Origin: Gemmatimonadota bacterium
GTDB lineage: Bacteria; Gemmatimonadota; Gemmatimonadetes; Gemmatimonadales; Gemmatimonadaceae
Assembly: GCA_031127095.1 (NCBI GenBank)
Contig: JARIEX010000006.1
Location: 1 to 51,933 of the forward strand
Direction of reading: 5' to 3'
Length of the DNA stretch: 51,933 nucleotides
Both the position numbers and the translations under genes were made by a program. Shown in pieces: positions 304 to 8,500 of this stretch (the stretch's first letter is position 1; each line of letters begins with the position of its first letter). Below the pieces are notes generated by a model that did no database searches, was not told the DNA's origin, and saw nothing but the letters and a program-made list of their open reading frames with translations.

Positions 304-3300
304 CTAGCGCCGTTCGTCGTCGTCGAACCCGAAGAACCCGCCGCCGCCTTCGCCGCCGCTCACGCGCTCGACGTGGAGCACCTTCGAATACGACGTCCCA
401 CCCACAATGATGGTGACCTTGTAGTCACCGGTGCCCACGAGCGCGTTCTGCCCGCCGCGGCCACCACGACCACCACCACCACCGCCGCCCGGGAAGATCC
501 CGATCGCCGCGAAGTCATCGCCCAGCGCGTCGCGGAGCGGACCGAACATCGCCTGCAATCCGGCCGGACCCGCCGCCGCGCCGGCACCCGCGCCCGGTCC
601 ACCGCGACCGCCGGGGCCCCCAGCGCCAGCCGTCGGAAAGCTCGGCAGTGGACGCGTCTCGCCAGGACGGTCCTGGAAGCCCGTGGCCCCGCCGAATCGC
701 CCACCACCGCCGCCACCGCCACCGAGCGCCCCGGCCAGCATGGCCTGCATTTCCGGCGGCTGCTGACCGGTCTGCACGGTCGTGCGGATCTGCGCCAGCA
801 TCGGCGCCGGCACGGCACCCGCCTTCTCGAGCGAATCGAGCGCGCGCATCACACGCCGCTGCGTGTTGATGCTGTCACGCAGCTGCGCCGGCGACAGCGC
901 GATCCGCGCCGGAGCCGGGCGCTGGGCGCGCATATCCCACACCACGTTGTGCAGGCCAGCCTGACCCGGTCCAGTAAGTGAACGGATCGTGTCGCCGCTC
1001 GCGTCCTGCACGATCATGCGCACCTGACCGCCGGCGCTCTCCGACAGCCGGTACCACATCGATGCGCCGTATGTCGGGCTCGGGCCCTGGAACACCCCCT
1101 GCCCCACGTTGCCGCCGTTGATCGTCTGCTCGCCCCACTGGAACGCCGTGCGTGGCTCAAACAGCGTGGCCTTGGCCGCCATCACGGCCGGCGTCATCTG
1201 CTGCAACGGCGTGATGTCGGCGATCCAGATGGAACGCCCATGCGTGCCGGCAATGAGTTCGCCGTCGCGCGGATGAACGACCAGATCGTGCACCGGCGTG
1301 GTGCCAAGTCCGCTCATGAACCGCTGCCACGACTGCCCGCGATCGATGGACACGTACGCGCCCACATCCGTGCCCACGAAGAGCAGATTCTGATTCTTCG
1401 TGTCTTCACGGATCACGTGCACGAAGTCCGTCTGACCGCTCGGCAGGTTGTTGACGATCGACGTGAACGTGCGGCCGAAGTTCGTGGTCACGAACACGTA
1501 CGGCGTGTAATCGTCGTTGCGGTGATTGTCGAACGTGACGTAGAACGTCGCGCTGTCGAAGTGCGACGGCTCGATGCGCGATACGTAGCTGCCCGCCGGC
1601 ACGCCGGTGACGTTCTTCGTCACTTCGTCCCACTGCGCGCCGTCGTTGCGCGTAACCCACACGCGCCCGTCATCGGTGCCGGCATAGAGTAGCCCCGGAC
1701 GGATCGACGATTCGTTCAGCGACACCACCGTCCCGAACGTTTCGGCACCCGTCACATCGGGCGTGATGCCGCCGGTGGTCTTGAGCGCCACGAACAGCTT
1801 GGCCGAGTCGGCGTAGGAGAGCTCACCGGAGATGGGGAACATCTCGTCGCCGTACTTCACGCTCTTGAGCACGCGGTTGGCGCCGAAGTACAGCGTCGCC
1901 GGATTGTGCTTCGAAATGATGTACGGGGTGTTCCAGTTCCAACGCAGCGCGTAGGCCACCGAATCGGCCCGCTGACGCGCGCGATACGCCGCCATCTGCT
2001 TCTTTTGCGTGGCCGTGGCGGGCTTGGTGGTATCGGGCCACACGGCGTAGATGGAGTCGTTCCACTGCAGGTAGCCGCCATCGCGCCACGTGGGCTTGCG
2101 CAGTGCCGTGCGCTCGCCGGTCGCGAAGTTCAGGCGGCCCATGTTACCGCCCTGCGACGTGGAGTAGATGATGTCGGTGTTCGTCTGATCCTGCTGCGTC
2201 ACGAAGCCGTCGCCCCCACCCACGTTGTGCCACATCGCGTTGGTGACCGGCCCCTGCTTGCGGCGGCTCGGCCCGCACCACGATCCGTTGTCCTGCAGGC
2301 CGCCGCACACGCGGTACGGCACGCCCATGTCGGCCGAAATATTATAGAACTGGCCGATGGCGATGGAGTTGGGGAACAACCAGTTCCCACCACGATCGTT
2401 CGATACGGCGACGCCTCCGTCGTTACCCGTGACGATGCGCTGCGGATCATTGGGATCGATCCACATGGCATGGTGATCCACGTGAATCCCTTCGGTGGTG
2501 TTGCCGGCTGTCTTGCCGCCGTCACTGGAATACTTCACCGGCGTGGACGACCAGTACACGCGGTTCGGATCCGTGGGATCGACGCGCACCTGCGAGTAGT
2601 AGAACGGGCGCGTGTTGTCGGGGTTCATGTACGCCCACGTCGTGCCGCCATTATCCGAGCGATACAGGCCGCTGGGCCGCTTCTGCGGCGCGACCTTGGC
2701 GTCCTTCGTGAGATTGGGCGCCGTGTCGGCCTCGACCATGGTGTACATCACGTCAGGATTCGAGCGCGCGATGGCGATCTCGATGCGTCCCTTGGTGGTG
2801 GTGGGGAATCCGCCACCCTTCACTTCGGCGAACGTCTCGCCACCGTCGGTGCTCTTCCAGAGCGCCGAGCCGGTGCCGCCCGACTTCAGGAAGTACGGTC
2901 CGCGCACGCGCTCGTAGCTCGAGGCCCAGAGGGTGTTCGGGTTGCGCGGGTCGAGCTGCACATCCACGAAGCCCGTCTTCTCGTCGAGAAACTTCACCAG
3001 GCGCCAGTTCTTGCCGCCGTCGGTGGTCTTGTAGAGCCCGCGCTCCTTGTTCGGTCCCCACGGATGGCCAAGGGCCGCCACCCACACGGTGTTCGGATCG
3101 GTGGGGTGCACTTGGATGCGACCGATGGAGCGCGTCTCGGCGAGGCCGAGGAACGTCCACGACTTGCCACCGTCGGCCGACTTGTAGATGCCGCCACCCG
3201 GCGAGATGGAATTGCGCGAATTCGCCTCGCCGGTGCCCCAATAGATCACGTTGGTGTCCGACGGGGCGATGGCGAGATCACCACCCGACGACACGCGGGC

Positions 3301-3585
3301 CGTGTCCATGACGGCCTTGAAGGTGGTGCCGTTGTTGGTGGTCTTCCACAACCCACCGCCGGCGGTGGACACGTAGAACGTCTTCGAGGGCGACGCGATG
3401 CCTTCGATATCGACGATCCGTCCCATCATGTTGGCGGGGCCGATGTTGCGCCACCGCAGCGCAGTAAGCACGGAAGCGTCGACGGAGGCCTTGGGCGGCA
3501 GCGCCGTCTGGGCCGCCAGCGGACTGGCCATCAGACCGGACAGGCCGGCCCCGAGGGCGAGGACGCGGATATTTCGCATGGGCAA
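304..3585 (-). CDS. Secreted VPS10/sortilin-type BNR-repeat protein
   Basis: A 1093-residue protein with a signal peptide (about 1-26, ending SPLAAQ). Asp-box/BNR beta-propeller motifs recur: WKTTNNGTTF near 80, YKSADGGKSW near 135, YKTTDGGKNW near 186, WKSTDGGETF near 244, then YRSDNGGTTW, VSNDRGGNW, VTRNDGAQW and VSIDRGQSW further on. This matches the large secreted proteins annotated as sortilin/VPS10-domain or WD40/YVTN/BNR-like proteins, which are abundant in Gemmatimonadota and Bacteroidota. The substrate is unknown; they are often called glycosyl hydrolases only by analogy to sialidase BNR repeats. The last ~200 residues contain glycine-rich low-complexity tracts. The start could be Met1 or Met3. 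No strong Shine-Dalgarno is visible. The gene lies just downstream of the tandem repeat array. Confidence 0.85.
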   Translation of the reverse strand: MPMRNIRVLALGAGLSGLMASPLAAQTALPPKASVDASVLTALRWRNIGPANMMGRIVDIEGIASPSKTFYVSTAGGGLWKTTNNGTTFKAVMDTARVSSGGDLAIAPSDTNVIYWGTGEANSRNSISPGGGIYKSADGGKSWTFLGLAETRSIGRIQVHPTDPNTVWVAALGHPWGPNKERGLYKTTDGGKNWRLVKFLDEKTGFVDVQLDPRNPNTLWASSYERVRGPYFLKSGGTGSALWKSTDGGETFAEVKGGGFPTTTKGRIEIAIARSNPDVMYTMVEADTAPNLTKDAKVAPQKRPSGLYRSDNGGTTWAYMNPDNTRPFYYSQVRVDPTDPNRVYWSSTPVKYSSDGGKTAGNTTEGIHVDHHAMWIDPNDPQRIVTGNDGGVAVSNDRGGNWLFPNSIAIGQFYNISADMGVPYRVCGGLQDNGSWCGPSRRKQGPVTNAMWHNVGGGDGFVTQQDQTNTDIIYSTSQGGNMGRLNFATGERTALRKPTWRDGGYLQWNDSIYAVWPDTTKPATATQKKQMAAYRARQRADSVAYALRWNWNTPYIISKHNPATLYFGANRVLKSVKYGDEMFPISGELSYADSAKLFVALKTTGGITPDVTGAETFGTVVSLNESSIRPGLLYAGTDDGRVWVTRNDGAQWDEVTKNVTGVPAGSYVSRIEPSHFDSATFYVTFDNHRNDDYTPYVFVTTNFGRTFTSIVNNLPSGQTDFVHVIREDTKNQNLLFVGTDVGAYVSIDRGQSWQRFMSGLGTTPVHDLVVHPRDGELIAGTHGRSIWIADITPLQQMTPAVMAAKATLFEPRTAFQWGEQTINGGNVGQGVFQGPSPTYGASMWYRLSESAGGQVRMIVQDASGDTIRSLTGPGQAGLHNVVWDMRAQRPAPARIALSPAQLRDSINTQRRVMRALDSLEKAGAVPAPMLAQIRTTVQTGQQPPEMQAMLAGALGGGGGGGGRFGGATGFQDRPGETRPLPSFPTAGAGGPGGRGGPGAGAGAAAGPAGLQAMFGPLRDALGDDFAAIGIFPGGGGGGGRGGRGGQNALVGTGDYKVTIIVGGTSYSKVLHVERVSGGEGGGGFFGFDDDERR

Positions 3586-3634
3586 GGTGAGCAGAGGTGG
3601 ACCGACTCGGCCCGGGAGAACGCGGGCGGGAGCA

Positions 3635-3663
3635 ACTATGAGCTACGCCGCGGCAACCCGCAA
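3635..3663 (-). promoter_or_regulatory. Candidate sigma-70-type promoter of the VPS10/BNR gene
   Basis: Read on the minus strand, TTGCGG (3663-3658) is followed after exactly 17 nt by CATAGT (3640-3635). These match the -35 consensus TTGACA at four of six bases and the -10 consensus TATAAT at four of six. Transcription would start near 3628, giving a leader of about 43 nt before the ATG at 3585. The promoter sits between the repeat array (from 3712) and the gene. It is a motif match only. Confidence 0.4.
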
Positions 3664-3973
3664 TGTTGTCGCGACGGGGCTGGCTGGCATGGGACGGGCG
3701 GCGGCGCACCGATCGGCTTATCCGTGTTGGTTCCGTGTGATCGGTGGTATCCGTGTTCTGGCAGTTCTCGGTCTCGCCTCATCACGACCGGTGGCGTCAC
3801 GGATAGATCGCAAACAGCTGGAACACGGATTGACGGATTGCACCGAAACAACACGGATCTGCTCCGTGGGGGCGACGGAGGTCGCTGCTTTTCCAACGGA
3901 TTGGTTTTTGATTGAACAACACATCAGCGATGGGCCGGCGCGTTGCGATGGCCGCTGGGACGCTGATCGGCTT

Positions 3974-4112
3974 ATCCGTGTTGATTCCGTGTGATCCGTG
4001 GTCTCCGTGTTCTGGCTGTTTTGGATCGTGCCGGATCACCACCGGTGGTGTCGCGGAGAGATCGTAAACAGCCGGAACACGGATTGACGGATTGCACCGA
4101 AACAACACGGAT
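3974..4112. repeat. Representative 139-nt core: long imperfect hairpin
   Basis: The core folds symmetrically around ACCACCGGTGGT (4038-4049). The 5' arm begins ATCCGTGTTG and the 3' arm ends AACACGGAT. With one bulged base about 40 Watson-Crick pairs form by eye, including runs CCGTGTTC and GGCTGTTT in the 5' arm. Within each arm a ~10-nt motif recurs (ATCCGTGTTG, ATTCCGTGTG, ATCCGTGGTC, TCCGTGTTCT). The same fold can be drawn in all seven cores. I recall intergenic ATCCGTG/ATCTGTG-type repeats from several bacterial phyla, but that is memory and needs a search. Confidence 0.85.
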
Positions 4113-4115
4113 CTG

Positions 4116-4134
4116 CTCCGTGGGGGCGACGGAG
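4116..4134. repeat. Conserved mini-hairpin at the start of each linker
   Basis: CTCCGT (4116-4121) pairs with ACGGAG (4129-4134) across a GGGGGCG loop. The same stem is present in all six linkers. The third linker keeps the stem after a C-to-G change just before it, and the sixth keeps it with loop GGGGACG. On the plus strand it is followed by GTCGCTGCTTTT in most copies. Confidence 0.6.
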
Positions 4135-5401
4135 GTCGCTGCTTTTCCAACGGATTGGTTTTTTGATTGAACAACACAACAGCGACGCGTCGGCGCGCTG
4201 CGATGGCCGCGGATACGTGGATCGGCTTATCCGTGTTGTTACCGTGTGATCCGTGGTCTCCGTGGGCTGGCTGGTGTTGATCGTGCCGGATGACCACCGG
4301 TGGTGTCGCGGAGAGATCGTAAACAGCCGGAACACGGATTGACGGATTGCACGGTAACAACACGGATCGGCTCCGTGGGGGCGACGGAGGTCGCTGCTTT
4401 TCCAACGGATTGGTTTTGATTGAACAACACATCAGCGATGCGTCGGCGCGCTGCGGTGGCCGGTGCTACGTGGATCGGCTTATCCGTGTTGTTACCGTGT
4501 GATCCGTGGTCTCCGTGGTCTGGCTGGTGTCGATCGTGCCGGATCACCACCGGTGGCGTCATGGACAGATCGCAAACAGCCGGAACACGGATTGACGGAT
4601 TGCACCGAAACAACACAGATCTGCTCCGTGGGGGCGACGGAGGTCGCTGCTTTTCCAACGGATTGGTTTTTTGATTGAACAACACAACAGCGATGCGTCG
4701 GCGCGCTGCGATGGCCGCGGATACGTGGATCGGCTTATCCGTGTTGTTACCGTGTGATCCGTGGTCTCCGTGTTCTGGCTGTTTTGGATCGTGCCGGATG
4801 ACCACCGGTGGTGTCGCGGAGAGATCGTAAACAGCCGGAACACGGATTGACGGATTGCACCGAAACAACACGGATCTGCTCCGTGGGGGCGACGGAGGTC
4901 GCGGCTTTTCCAACGGATTGGTGTTCGCCGATTGAACAACCCGAGAGCGATGCGTCGGCGCGCTGCGATGGCCGCGGATACGTGGATCGGCTTATCCGTG
5001 TTGTTACCGTGTGATCCGTGGTATCCGTGTTCTGGCTGTTTTGGATCGTGCCGGATGACCACCGGTGGTGTCGCGGAGAGATCGTAAACAGCCGGAACAC
5101 GGATTGACGGATTGCACCGAAACAACACAGATCTGCTCCGTGGGGACGACGGAGCACGTTTCCGATCCGATGGCTTTGCACTCTTTGATTGAACAACACA
5201 ACAGCGATGCGTCGGCGCACTGCGATGGCCGGTGCTACGCTGATCGGCTTATCCGTGTTGTTACCGTGTGATCCGCGGTATCCGTGTTCAGGCTGTTTTG
5301 GATCGTGCCGGATCACCACCGACGGTGCCGCCGAGGGATCGCAAACAGCTGGAACACGGATTGACGGATTGCACCGAAACGACACGGATCTGCAACAGCA
5401 G

Positions 5402-8400
5402 CTACGCCGTGACCGGCACCACCCCCACCGACTGCGGCGCCGGCTCCTCACTCTCCTCCAACGCCGGTGCCAGCATCTTGTACAGCACCGGCGTGACCAG
5501 CCGCGCAATCAGGGTACTCGACACCAGCCCGCCGATAATCACCCACGCCAGCGGTGAGTACAGCCCCGATCCCTGAAAGGCCAGCGGCAGCAACCCACCG
5601 ATCGCCGTCATCGTCGTGAGTACGATCGGCAGGAATCGAATCTCGCCGGCCTGTTGAATCGCGTCATCCAGACTCACCCCCTGTCGCCGCAGTTGGTCGG
5701 TGAAGTCCACCAGCAGAATACTCGTCTTGATCTCGATGCCCACCAATGCGACGAAGCCGATCATGGCCGTGAACGACAGCGTGTAGCCGCTGAGCAACAG
5801 CGCCACGATACCACCCACCAACCCCAGTGGAATCACCGAGGCCACCACCAGCGTGGTACGGAAGTCGCGGAACTCGAGCACCAGAATGGCGAGAATCGCA
5901 AACACCGCCACGATGATCGCGCCGCCAATGCCGCGAAAGCTTTCCTGACGGCTCTCGAACTCGCCGGCCGGATGCAACACGTAGCCCGCCGGCAATACGA
6001 CGGCCTCGAGTGCGCTCAACACCTGCCTGGTAACGGCGTCGGTGTTGTACCCCGAGCGTACGTAGCTCGTGATGGTCACGGAACGCTGCCGGTTCACATG
6101 ATCGATCGTGGTCGGCGATGCGTTGAAGCGCACCGCCGCGATCTGCGACAGCGGAATCATGGCACCGCTCACGCTGCTCACGTGAATACGATCGAGTGCC
6201 TCCGGTGCCGGTCGCCCGTTGTGCGCCATACGCACCATGAGCGGATACTCGTCGCCATTGGCCGAGCGGATCTTCCCCGCCTCGATCCCGGCAATCCCCA
6301 ACCGCAGCGTGCGCTCCACTTCCACGCTCGGAACGCCGAGCAGGCCCGCCTTTTGCTTGTCCACCACCAGCGTCAGATCCGATCGACGCAGCCGGACGGG
6401 GTTGTTCACATACTGCGTCCCCTCGGTGCCCTTGAACACCGCATCGTACTGCGCCGCGAGCCGCTGCAGGGTATCGAGATTCGTACCCTCAATGCGCATC
6501 GCGATTGGCGCATCAACGGGGGGACCGTTCTCGAACTCCTTCAACTCGATACGCGCGCCGGGATACAGCGCCAACTGCTGTCGCAGCGAATCAAGCGCCA
6601 TCGGAGTGCGCACATTGTCGTAGTCGTGCAGCAGCACGATCAGCTGCCCGCGATTGGGCGCCTCCGCGCGCTGAAACACGTTGTAATACACCTCCGGATT
6701 GTCCTTTCCCACGTTGGTGAACACACCGCGCGTGGCGGGATGCTGCCGGATCACCGACTCGGCATAGCGCGCCGCCCGGTCGGTTTCCGCGAGCGACGTG
6801 CCATCCGGGGTCTCGATGTCCACGTGGTACTGCGGCGTGCCGGCTTTCGGGAACAGCGAGAAGCCGACCGCCGGCACCAGCGCCACCGAGCCTGCCACCA
6901 CCAACAGGGCGAGCACCAAGGTCGTGCGCGGCGCCGCCAGCGCCCGGTGCAGCAGCGGCGCGTAGGTGCGATGAATGCCACGATCGAGCCACTGCAGCAC
7001 GCGATTGCCTTCGGCGTGCTCCGTGCGCGGCATCAACCGGCTGGCCAGCCACGGAATGATGGTGAGCGACACGACCAGGGAGGACACCACCGCGAACACC
7101 ACCGCAATGGGCAACGACTGGATGTACTTGCCGGCCAGCCCCGGCAGGAACAGCAGCGGCAGGAACGCAAAGACGAGCGTGCCGGTGGCACCCAGGACCG
7201 CCACCCCGATCTGTTTCGTTCCCTCGATCGCCGCCGCGGTCCGCGTGTATCCGTGACGAAGGAATCGCGAGATGTTTTCCACGACCACGATTGAGTCGTC
7301 CACCAGCAACCCCAGCGCAATCACGAAGCCCACGATCGACAGCTGATTGATGCTGTAACCGGTGGCGTACAGCAACATGACCGCCATGGCCAGCGACAGC
7401 GGAATCGAGATCATCACGATCACGGACGCCCGCGTACCAAGGGGCAGCAGCGTGATCAGCACCAGCAGGAGGGCAATCGCGAAATCCTCGCCCAGGCGCG
7501 CCAATCGCCGGTCCACGTTTTGCGACTGATCGAAACCACGGGCCAGCGTGATCCCCGGGGGCAAGCCCCGCTCAAGGACGTCGAGGGCCGCCCACACATC
7601 CGCCTTCACCGCCGAAATGTTCGTGCCCTTCTGCACCGCCACCGTCACCCACATGGCGCGCTGTCCGTTCCAGCGTCCCATGTGTACGGCGTCGCCATCG
7701 CCCCACTGCACGGTCGCGATGTCCTGAACGCGCACCACGGCACCGTTGGCGCCCGTGATCACCGTGCGCTGCACATCCTCGGCGCTCTTGTACCGACCCG
7801 TCGTAGCGATGTTGTAGCGACGCGTCCCCACGTCCACCGAGCCGCCGGGGATCTGCGCGTTGTCGCTCCCCAGTGCGTTGAACACCTGCGTCGGCGTGAG
7901 ACCGAGGCGCGCCATGCGACCGAGATCGAGCGTGACCTGCATCTCACGCGGAGGTGCGGCCCACCGCTCCGCCTGCTTCACCCCGGGCACACGCTCCAGC
8001 GCGTCTTCGAAGCGCCTCGCCACGTCATCCGTCTGCGCGTACGGCGCCTGCGGTGCCACCAGCGCCACCTGGAACACGGTGAGATCAGAGTTCTCATTGC
8101 GTTGCACTTCCAGCCGCTGCAATGCCGACGGCAGGTCGGCGCGCAACGCATTCACCTCACGGAGCACCTGATCATACTTGCGCTCCGCATCCGATTCTGA
8201 ATCGAACTCGATCTTGATCACCGACAATCCGTCGCTACTCGTCGAGGTGAGCTTCTTCACCTCGGTGAGCGAGTTGAGCTGCTTTTCGAGCGGCTCGGTC
8301 ACCAGCTGCTCCATGTCTGCCGGCGACGCGCCCGGATACACGGCCACGGTCGTGAAGATCGGCACCGGAAAATCGGGGTCTTCGGCACGCGGAATCGCGA

Positions 8401-8500
8401 TCCAGCTGCTCACACCCAGTGCGCCGAACATGAGGAACAGCAGCACCGTGAACTGCCACCGCTTGACCGAAAATTCGGCCAGCGTCCCCAGAAAGTTCAT
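5402..8500 (-). CDS. RND-family efflux transporter, inner-membrane permease
   Basis: 1032 residues, the usual size for an HAE1/AcrB-like or heavy-metal RND pump. TM1 lies near residues 15-33. The TM4 proton-relay segment carries the aspartate pair in LLVDDSIVVVEN, and TM10 keeps the lysine of that relay in GIEIKTSILLVDF. Large periplasmic loops follow TM1 and TM7. It would pump drugs, solvents or other amphiphiles by proton antiport, working with the adaptor and TolC-like genes immediately upstream. Its ATG overlaps the adaptor stop (ATGA, 8500-8497). No residue visible here fixes the substrate. The stop codon lies 9 bp from the tandem hairpin array, so the mRNA would run into that array. Confidence 0.93.
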   Translation of the reverse strand: MNFLGTLAEFSVKRWQFTVLLFLMFGALGVSSWIAIPRAEDPDFPVPIFTTVAVYPGASPADMEQLVTEPLEKQLNSLTEVKKLTSTSSDGLSVIKIEFDSESDAERKYDQVLREVNALRADLPSALQRLEVQRNENSDLTVFQVALVAPQAPYAQTDDVARRFEDALERVPGVKQAERWAAPPREMQVTLDLGRMARLGLTPTQVFNALGSDNAQIPGGSVDVGTRRYNIATTGRYKSAEDVQRTVITGANGAVVRVQDIATVQWGDGDAVHMGRWNGQRAMWVTVAVQKGTNISAVKADVWAALDVLERGLPPGITLARGFDQSQNVDRRLARLGEDFAIALLLVLITLLPLGTRASVIVMISIPLSLAMAVMLLYATGYSINQLSIVGFVIALGLLVDDSIVVVENISRFLRHGYTRTAAAIEGTKQIGVAVLGATGTLVFAFLPLLFLPGLAGKYIQSLPIAVVFAVVSSLVVSLTIIPWLASRLMPRTEHAEGNRVLQWLDRGIHRTYAPLLHRALAAPRTTLVLALLVVAGSVALVPAVGFSLFPKAGTPQYHVDIETPDGTSLAETDRAARYAESVIRQHPATRGVFTNVGKDNPEVYYNVFQRAEAPNRGQLIVLLHDYDNVRTPMALDSLRQQLALYPGARIELKEFENGPPVDAPIAMRIEGTNLDTLQRLAAQYDAVFKGTEGTQYVNNPVRLRRSDLTLVVDKQKAGLLGVPSVEVERTLRLGIAGIEAGKIRSANGDEYPLMVRMAHNGRPAPEALDRIHVSSVSGAMIPLSQIAAVRFNASPTTIDHVNRQRSVTITSYVRSGYNTDAVTRQVLSALEAVVLPAGYVLHPAGEFESRQESFRGIGGAIIVAVFAILAILVLEFRDFRTTLVVASVIPLGLVGGIVALLLSGYTLSFTAMIGFVALVGIEIKTSILLVDFTDQLRRQGVSLDDAIQQAGEIRFLPIVLTTMTAIGGLLPLAFQGSGLYSPLAWVIIGGLVSSTLIARLVTPVLYKMLAPALEESEEPAPQSVGVVPVTA

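Follow-up and report, generated by a model that had tools for sequence, protein, structure and literature searches.

A palindromic array behind an AcrB-type gene in a Gemmatimonadota genome: probable local expansion of a dispersed REP/BIME-like repeat

In the window analyzed here (the whole stretch of 51,933 nt from a Gemmatimonadota contig), seven palindromic cores of equal length alternate with six linkers of slightly unequal length, and this layout raises the question of whether the locus is an undescribed element whose core length is preserved or a local amplification of a repeat that occurs more widely. The initial annotation had leaned to the first answer, reading the fixed core length as a sign of selection or of a length-keeping copying mechanism, and had named a structured RNA, a protein-binding array and a tandemly amplified palindromic element as three options.

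The array and its repeating unit

A sequence check of the whole window placed seven cores of exactly 139 nt each and six linkers at 3720..5389, an array of alternating half-modules to which repeat analysis assigns no strand. The cores, defined by alignment on the forward strand, are located at 3720..3858, 3974..4112, 4229..4367, 4482..4620, 4737..4875, 4994..5132 and 5251..5389, and the array opens and closes with a core; both features agree with what had first been noticed. The linkers had been described as all different in length, but they measure 115, 116, 114, 116, 118 and 118 nt, which is four values; linker 1 (3859..3973, 115 nt, no strand) contains, in the alignment, the T-run where the linker lengths diverge. 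TRF reported a single array at 3711-5393 (period 255 nt, 6.6 copies, score 2637), and all 24 near-matches of ATCCGTGTTG (at most one mismatch) in the 52-kb window lay within the array, against 3.6 expected. Together with the equal length of the cores, these results indicate that the array is real. The number of substitutions per core pair ranged from 2 to 24 among the seven cores of the window, and the predicted RNA fold of every core is a long hairpin (-70.5 to -90.1 kcal/mol).

DNA uptake sequences in inverted pairs are found in some naturally competent bacteria, and a short motif standing in inverted pairs after genes would suit that reading; however, uptake sequences would occur as densely scattered single copies, and the confinement of ATCCGTGTTG to the array led us to reject this candidate, which can hardly be correct. 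A CRISPR has unique spacers between identical repeats; the linkers of the window can be aligned to one another, and the earlier statement that the array is not a CRISPR thus holds as far as the spacers are concerned. An AcrB-type RND transporter gene (5402..8500, reverse strand; PF00873, 4.3e-207) has its stop codon some 10 nt away from the array, which therefore occupies the 3' region of that gene. On the far side, a gene with a Sortilin-Vps10 domain (304..3585, reverse strand; PF15902, 4.2e-25) has its start about 135 nt off the array.

The genome of the window comprises 229 contigs (83% complete), and the array sequence has matches on 14 of them besides its own; the usual form there is a single hairpin consisting of a left half-module (GAACACGGAT...ACACGGATAAGC), a loop and a right half-module (GCTTATCCGTGT...ATCCGTGTTC). 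Each half-module is about 45 nt long and is made of ATCCGTGNN-type units of about 9 nt. Eight of the nine single elements extracted from this genome measure 104-130 nt and one 176 nt; among the 102 elements of distinct sequence collected in the genus, two inverted half-modules make up a single element, and 82 are 100-139 nt long. Read in these terms, a core is a right half-module, a centre of about 50 nt and the next left half-module, and a linker is the loop of a left-right element, stretched to about 115 nt in the window; the single copies elsewhere mostly have shorter loops. For example, the left half-module, linker 1 as a 115-nt loop and the right half-module form an alternate unit of 200 nt at 3817..4016 (no strand). 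Other arrays in the same genome repeat other loops, namely seven elements of 138 nt on contig C161 and four of 108 nt on contig C138, and within the arrays of this genome the half-modules alternate in orientation in a BIME-like manner. Moreover, core-type units exist at non-orthologous sites in relatives (e.g., contig C266 of G023 and contig C393 of G024). The two arms of one element were more alike (0.757) than arms of different elements (0.704; 68 elements of 100-125 nt), which indicates that the two arms of a hairpin are maintained, or copied, together. We propose that the half-module is the building block, that two inverted half-modules make the single element, and that alternating half-modules make the arrays. 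Hexamer-type tracts (CAACGG, CAACAG, GCAAAA) were seen outside the hairpin at four loci (L027 2990-3620, L024 2740-2780, L192 and L193), and a loose pattern with a hexamer tract on one side and its complement on the other was present at 74 of the 102 elements, a count without a control.

Does the core length stay fixed? In the MAFFT alignment of the array, all gaps fell within the linkers, in one short stretch around a T-run. We estimate about 3-4 indel events in the linkers, which form about 42% of the array, and the probability that all of them fell there, with indels striking at random in proportion to length, is about 0.03-0.07 when the T-run is left aside as a slippage hotspot. At the orthologous locus of the sister species G023, direct parsing gave three cores of 141 nt, and the linkers were constant too (118 nt by the same coordinates). 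The parsed cores measured 139 nt at this locus in G022, G026, G027 and G024, i.e., in every other species parsed except G023 (four of five), which is more than local expansion needs and counts against it. The parser covered 24 sources, gave no length in 10 and 102-126 nt in others, and was relied on for the orthologous window locus only. In the array of C161, the core centre is 77 nt in five cases and 88 nt in one and the alternate segment is 138 nt in all seven; in that of C138, the centres are 55, 55 and 85 nt and the alternate segment is 108 nt in all four. The alternate segment is thus constant there and the core varies, so the rule of a fixed core fails elsewhere. The linker gaps at one T-run, the 141-nt cores of G023 and the reversed pattern of C161 and C138 make the length lock of the window cores weak evidence, and they leave selection on core length, or a copying mechanism that keeps it, unsupported. 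A few slippage events at one T-run, following recent amplification, would yield the length pattern of the window.

Dispersal, gene ends and the origin of the array

A covariance model built from 13 elements matched 24 of the 30 genomes of the genus, a search of other genomes that the initial annotation had proposed as a check. The matches per genus genome ranged from 0 to at least 70 (both strands counted). In the family, the model matched at least 56 of 148 genomes, in a search with stricter filters and 22 scored candidates per genome, by which weak copies may be missed.

None of the 102 elements was located inside a called gene (heuristic calls from GC3-scored ORFs). Forty-three had convergent neighbors, 40 tandem ones (21+19) and 4 divergent ones, and for the remaining 15 one neighboring gene was missing; the 102 include array members and are hence not independent. 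Flanking stop codons were a median of 42 nt away (n=137), and flanking starts a median of 150.5 nt (n=52). In loci of at least 2.5 kb, the ratio of convergent to divergent gaps was 23:6 with an element versus 20:27 without (p=0.002). This location at gene ends is a property of the genus. Among the matches from other phyla described below, 23 of 93 lay within ORFs of 100 aa or more (naive caller), and the median distances to stop and start were alike (102 and 113 nt); we therefore limit the gene-end location to the genus.

Maximum-likelihood analysis of 36 cores united cores 2-7 of the window in one clade (97/95) and paired core 1 with the core of G022 (91/84), beside those of G026 and G027 from the same locus. 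Therefore, we conclude that an older unit was expanded into the array within this lineage. Several species have arrays at the orthologous locus; their unit numbers are lower bounds, because contigs often break inside them and the copy of G022 is interrupted. The latter (L048 1087-1420) is split by a transposase fragment (rve_3/rve_2), and its one parsed core is likewise a lower bound. In G022 an insertion sequence may have landed in the array.

The flanks of four loci of the same genome were searched in 13 relatives; two loci were aligned with five relatives each, one with four and the fourth with G022, and the rest were compared by the distance between flank matches. The element was often kept at the same gene pair with its internal sequence changed. 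Partial losses were also observed: one locus is a remnant in G027, and one has the right half only in G022. In G028 the element is absent at two loci, at one of which a short, plain stem-loop replaces it. Among the loci compared with relatives, no exact pair of empty and filled sites with a clear junction was obtained; from dispersal and patchiness we infer that the element as such has probably moved. At the locus of another element (L034), three relatives (L199, L200 and L201) have, by eye, a PAS/histidine-kinase-like gene and no element. A single 257-nt query gave no match in plasmid records.

With good though not full confidence, we consider that a non-coding intergenic repeat, which forms hairpins and is dispersed, was multiplied locally in this lineage to give the array; instead of a length-locked undescribed array, the locus most likely shows a recent tandem expansion, at one site, of a scattered palindrome of the REP/BIME-like kind. 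Of the three options named at the outset, the tandemly amplified palindromic element is supported by the dispersed matches and by the core tree. The window array could have been enlarged locally by unequal recombination or by replication slippage.

Candidate mobilizers and a possible role in transcripts

PMC3733652 and PMC2817692 describe REPs and BIMEs as palindromic, extragenic repeats of many copies, near stop codons and rare between divergent genes, which form inverted doublets and arrays of alternating orientation. The element studied here resembles REP/BIME and REPIN sequences in all of these traits: it is palindromic, extragenic, multi-copy and adjacent to stop codons, its arrays alternate, and it is rare between divergent genes. 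It differs from them in that it lacks a GTAG or CGTC tag, that its modules exceed 20-40 bp and are built of repeats of about 9 nt, and that it is unassociated with Y1_Tnp and abundant in genomes without detected Y1_Tnp. According to PMC3733652, CGTC REPs are apparently without a dedicated transposase, and in this respect, as palindromic repeats at gene ends for which none was found, they resemble the element; however, the sequence and size differ, and the CGTC tag stands near 1 of the 102 elements. Within 12 nt of the element end, GTAG occurred at 3/102 and CGTC at 1/102, versus 9.8% and 32.8% at random places in the same loci, and both tags are thus depleted.

For the mobilizer we relied on Y1_Tnp (PF01797), which we take to cover RAYTs. 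That the element is a REPIN or BIME mobilized by a RAYT, i.e., a Y1 transposase, which was lost or missed here, is suggested by the alternating inverted modules, the location after stop codons and the arrays, and by Y1_Tnp matches in 32 of 39 genomes chosen for the motif (31 over the cut-off) versus 23 of 148 in the family. However, no Y1_Tnp was found in the genome of the window (83% complete) or in the element-rich G002 (one contig, 99%). In the family, Y1_Tnp was present in 8 of 56 genomes with the element and 15 of 92 others (p=0.82; many genomes incomplete); in the genus, copy number did not differ with its presence (p=0.74); and among the 39 cross-phylum genomes, chosen for the motif, it was present in 21 of 25 with the hairpin and 11 of 14 without (p=0.69). 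The Y1 loci themselves gave the same picture: the eight in the genus contained 6-12 heptamer matches each (at most one mismatch), about the chance rate by our estimate, and 18 of the 20 cross-phylum ones lacked clustered modules. The other two have three units about 650 nt from the Y1 gene (L292) and three diverged units (L299), and by eye neither set frames the gene. Co-occurrence with a linked transposase, which had been proposed as a check, was examined for Y1/RAYT and gave no association; a Y1/RAYT mobilizer is disfavored in genus and family, and we consider a RAYT origin improbable. By eye, the Desulfococcaceae Y1 transposase gene of L292 lies within a long array of a different palindrome of the CCCGTAGGGAC type (1000-2450), and the Mediterranea Y1 transposase of L299 is flanked by long inverted repeats that have no relation to the ATCCGTG element (180-1000).

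Another candidate is a MITE whose DDE-type transposase would be supplied by a gene located elsewhere and present in some of the genomes; a MITE would share the short, non-coding form, the terminal inverted repeats and the dispersal of the element. Direct repeats of at least 7 nt flank 8 of the 102 elements versus 0 in the swapped-flank control; but of these eight, four are in the array of C138, three are window-type copies in relatives and one is a singleton (L030). The lengths and distances of the direct repeats are inconstant, and 3 of 88 singletons reach 6 nt, a figure without a control. Unlike in MITEs, no constant target-site duplication was seen, in a comparison that is blind to duplications of 5 nt or less. 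In addition, no transposase was present between the element arms in the eight loci read, and the larger inserts at orthologous loci among these carry other genes. We consider a MITE unlikely, though somewhat less so than a RAYT-driven element.

A third reading is that of a structured RNA or terminator array selected on the transcript. The array and the single elements have strong predicted hairpins, the elements are located after stop codons, and 6 terminator-like sites were counted where shuffled sequences gave 1.8 (sd 1.6). All six are on the strand that is sense for the gene upstream; but five of them are repeats of a single unit, and their tails read, for example, TTGTTTCGGT. A search of Rfam with 3500-5600 found nothing near threshold (best 25.7 bits versus 82, chance-level microRNA matches only). 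At tandem loci, the sense strand had 84 G-U and 125 A-C mismatches (p=0.006; array members are not independent), and G-U, not being above A-C, therefore gives no support for selection on the transcript. We consider this reading improbable, and the structured RNA option of the initial annotation has gained little support. The best fit is a DNA-level repeat that would be tolerated close behind stop codons, where the elements could form hairpins at 3' ends or hinder transcription and in this way affect transcripts.

The array itself would then be a local duplication, and the REP/BIME-like family to which it belongs matters more.

Similar hairpins beyond the genus

When about 85,000 species genomes were scanned for CCGTGTNATCCGTGNNATCCGTG, at least 119 stretches matched, where about 0.5 chance matches are expected at even base composition. 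Among the matches listed (80, assigned by title, several of them from one genome), 23 belonged to Verrucomicrobiota, 19 to Planctomycetota, 13 to Bacteroidota, 8 to Chloroflexota, 3 to Methanosarcinales and 14 to others; ATCCGTG hairpins are seen in these five groups in L064-L143. At least two inverted units (at most one mismatch) occurred within 150 nt in 59 of 93 of the matches listed, and the inverted units were more numerous upstream in 58 and downstream in 8, a bias that hairpins of constant polarity must show. Exact heptamers reached 7.9 per kb near the matches versus 0.16 elsewhere in the loci, a contrast that includes the effect of selection. An explicit hairpin pattern was present in 25 of 39 genomes (those behind 40 loci preselected for the motif), with up to 145 matches in one genome when overlapping ones are counted, and the reversed-pattern control gave 0. 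The Gemmatimonadota covariance model scored E of 0.001 or less at 26 of these 40 loci (Methanoperedens, 7.5e-12), and in view of the preselection such scores indicate similarity of the whole hairpin, not its frequency. The cross-phylum genomes are mostly metagenome-assembled and were taken as binned.

The cross-phylum likeness may reflect either common descent or the convergent evolution of a binding motif. Tentatively, and with more doubt than confidence, we suggest that the element belongs to a single superfamily of palindromes with modular arms of about 9-nt units (ATCCGTGNN) common to Bacteria and Archaea, which would have spread horizontally and be copied by an undescribed, non-RAYT mechanism or recognized by a widely conserved protein. 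At least four bacterial phyla, and Methanosarcinales among the archaea, have the same modular arms, which show no association with the usual transposase; if they are one family, identifying its copying or binding protein would account for a type of intergenic DNA that keeps recurring.

A text search of the open-access literature by exact motif string gave no paper; the string in PMC4060949 is an unrelated example. Adjoining the ATCCGTG copies of L069, L090, L101, L122 and L131 are tandem units of like form and other letters (ATTCGTGTCC, ATTAGTGAA and CTTCTGTGCC types), which by eye are perhaps sister families. In addition, 19 stretches of viral contigs (L223-L241) carry a triple ATCCGTG motif and are possible vehicles.
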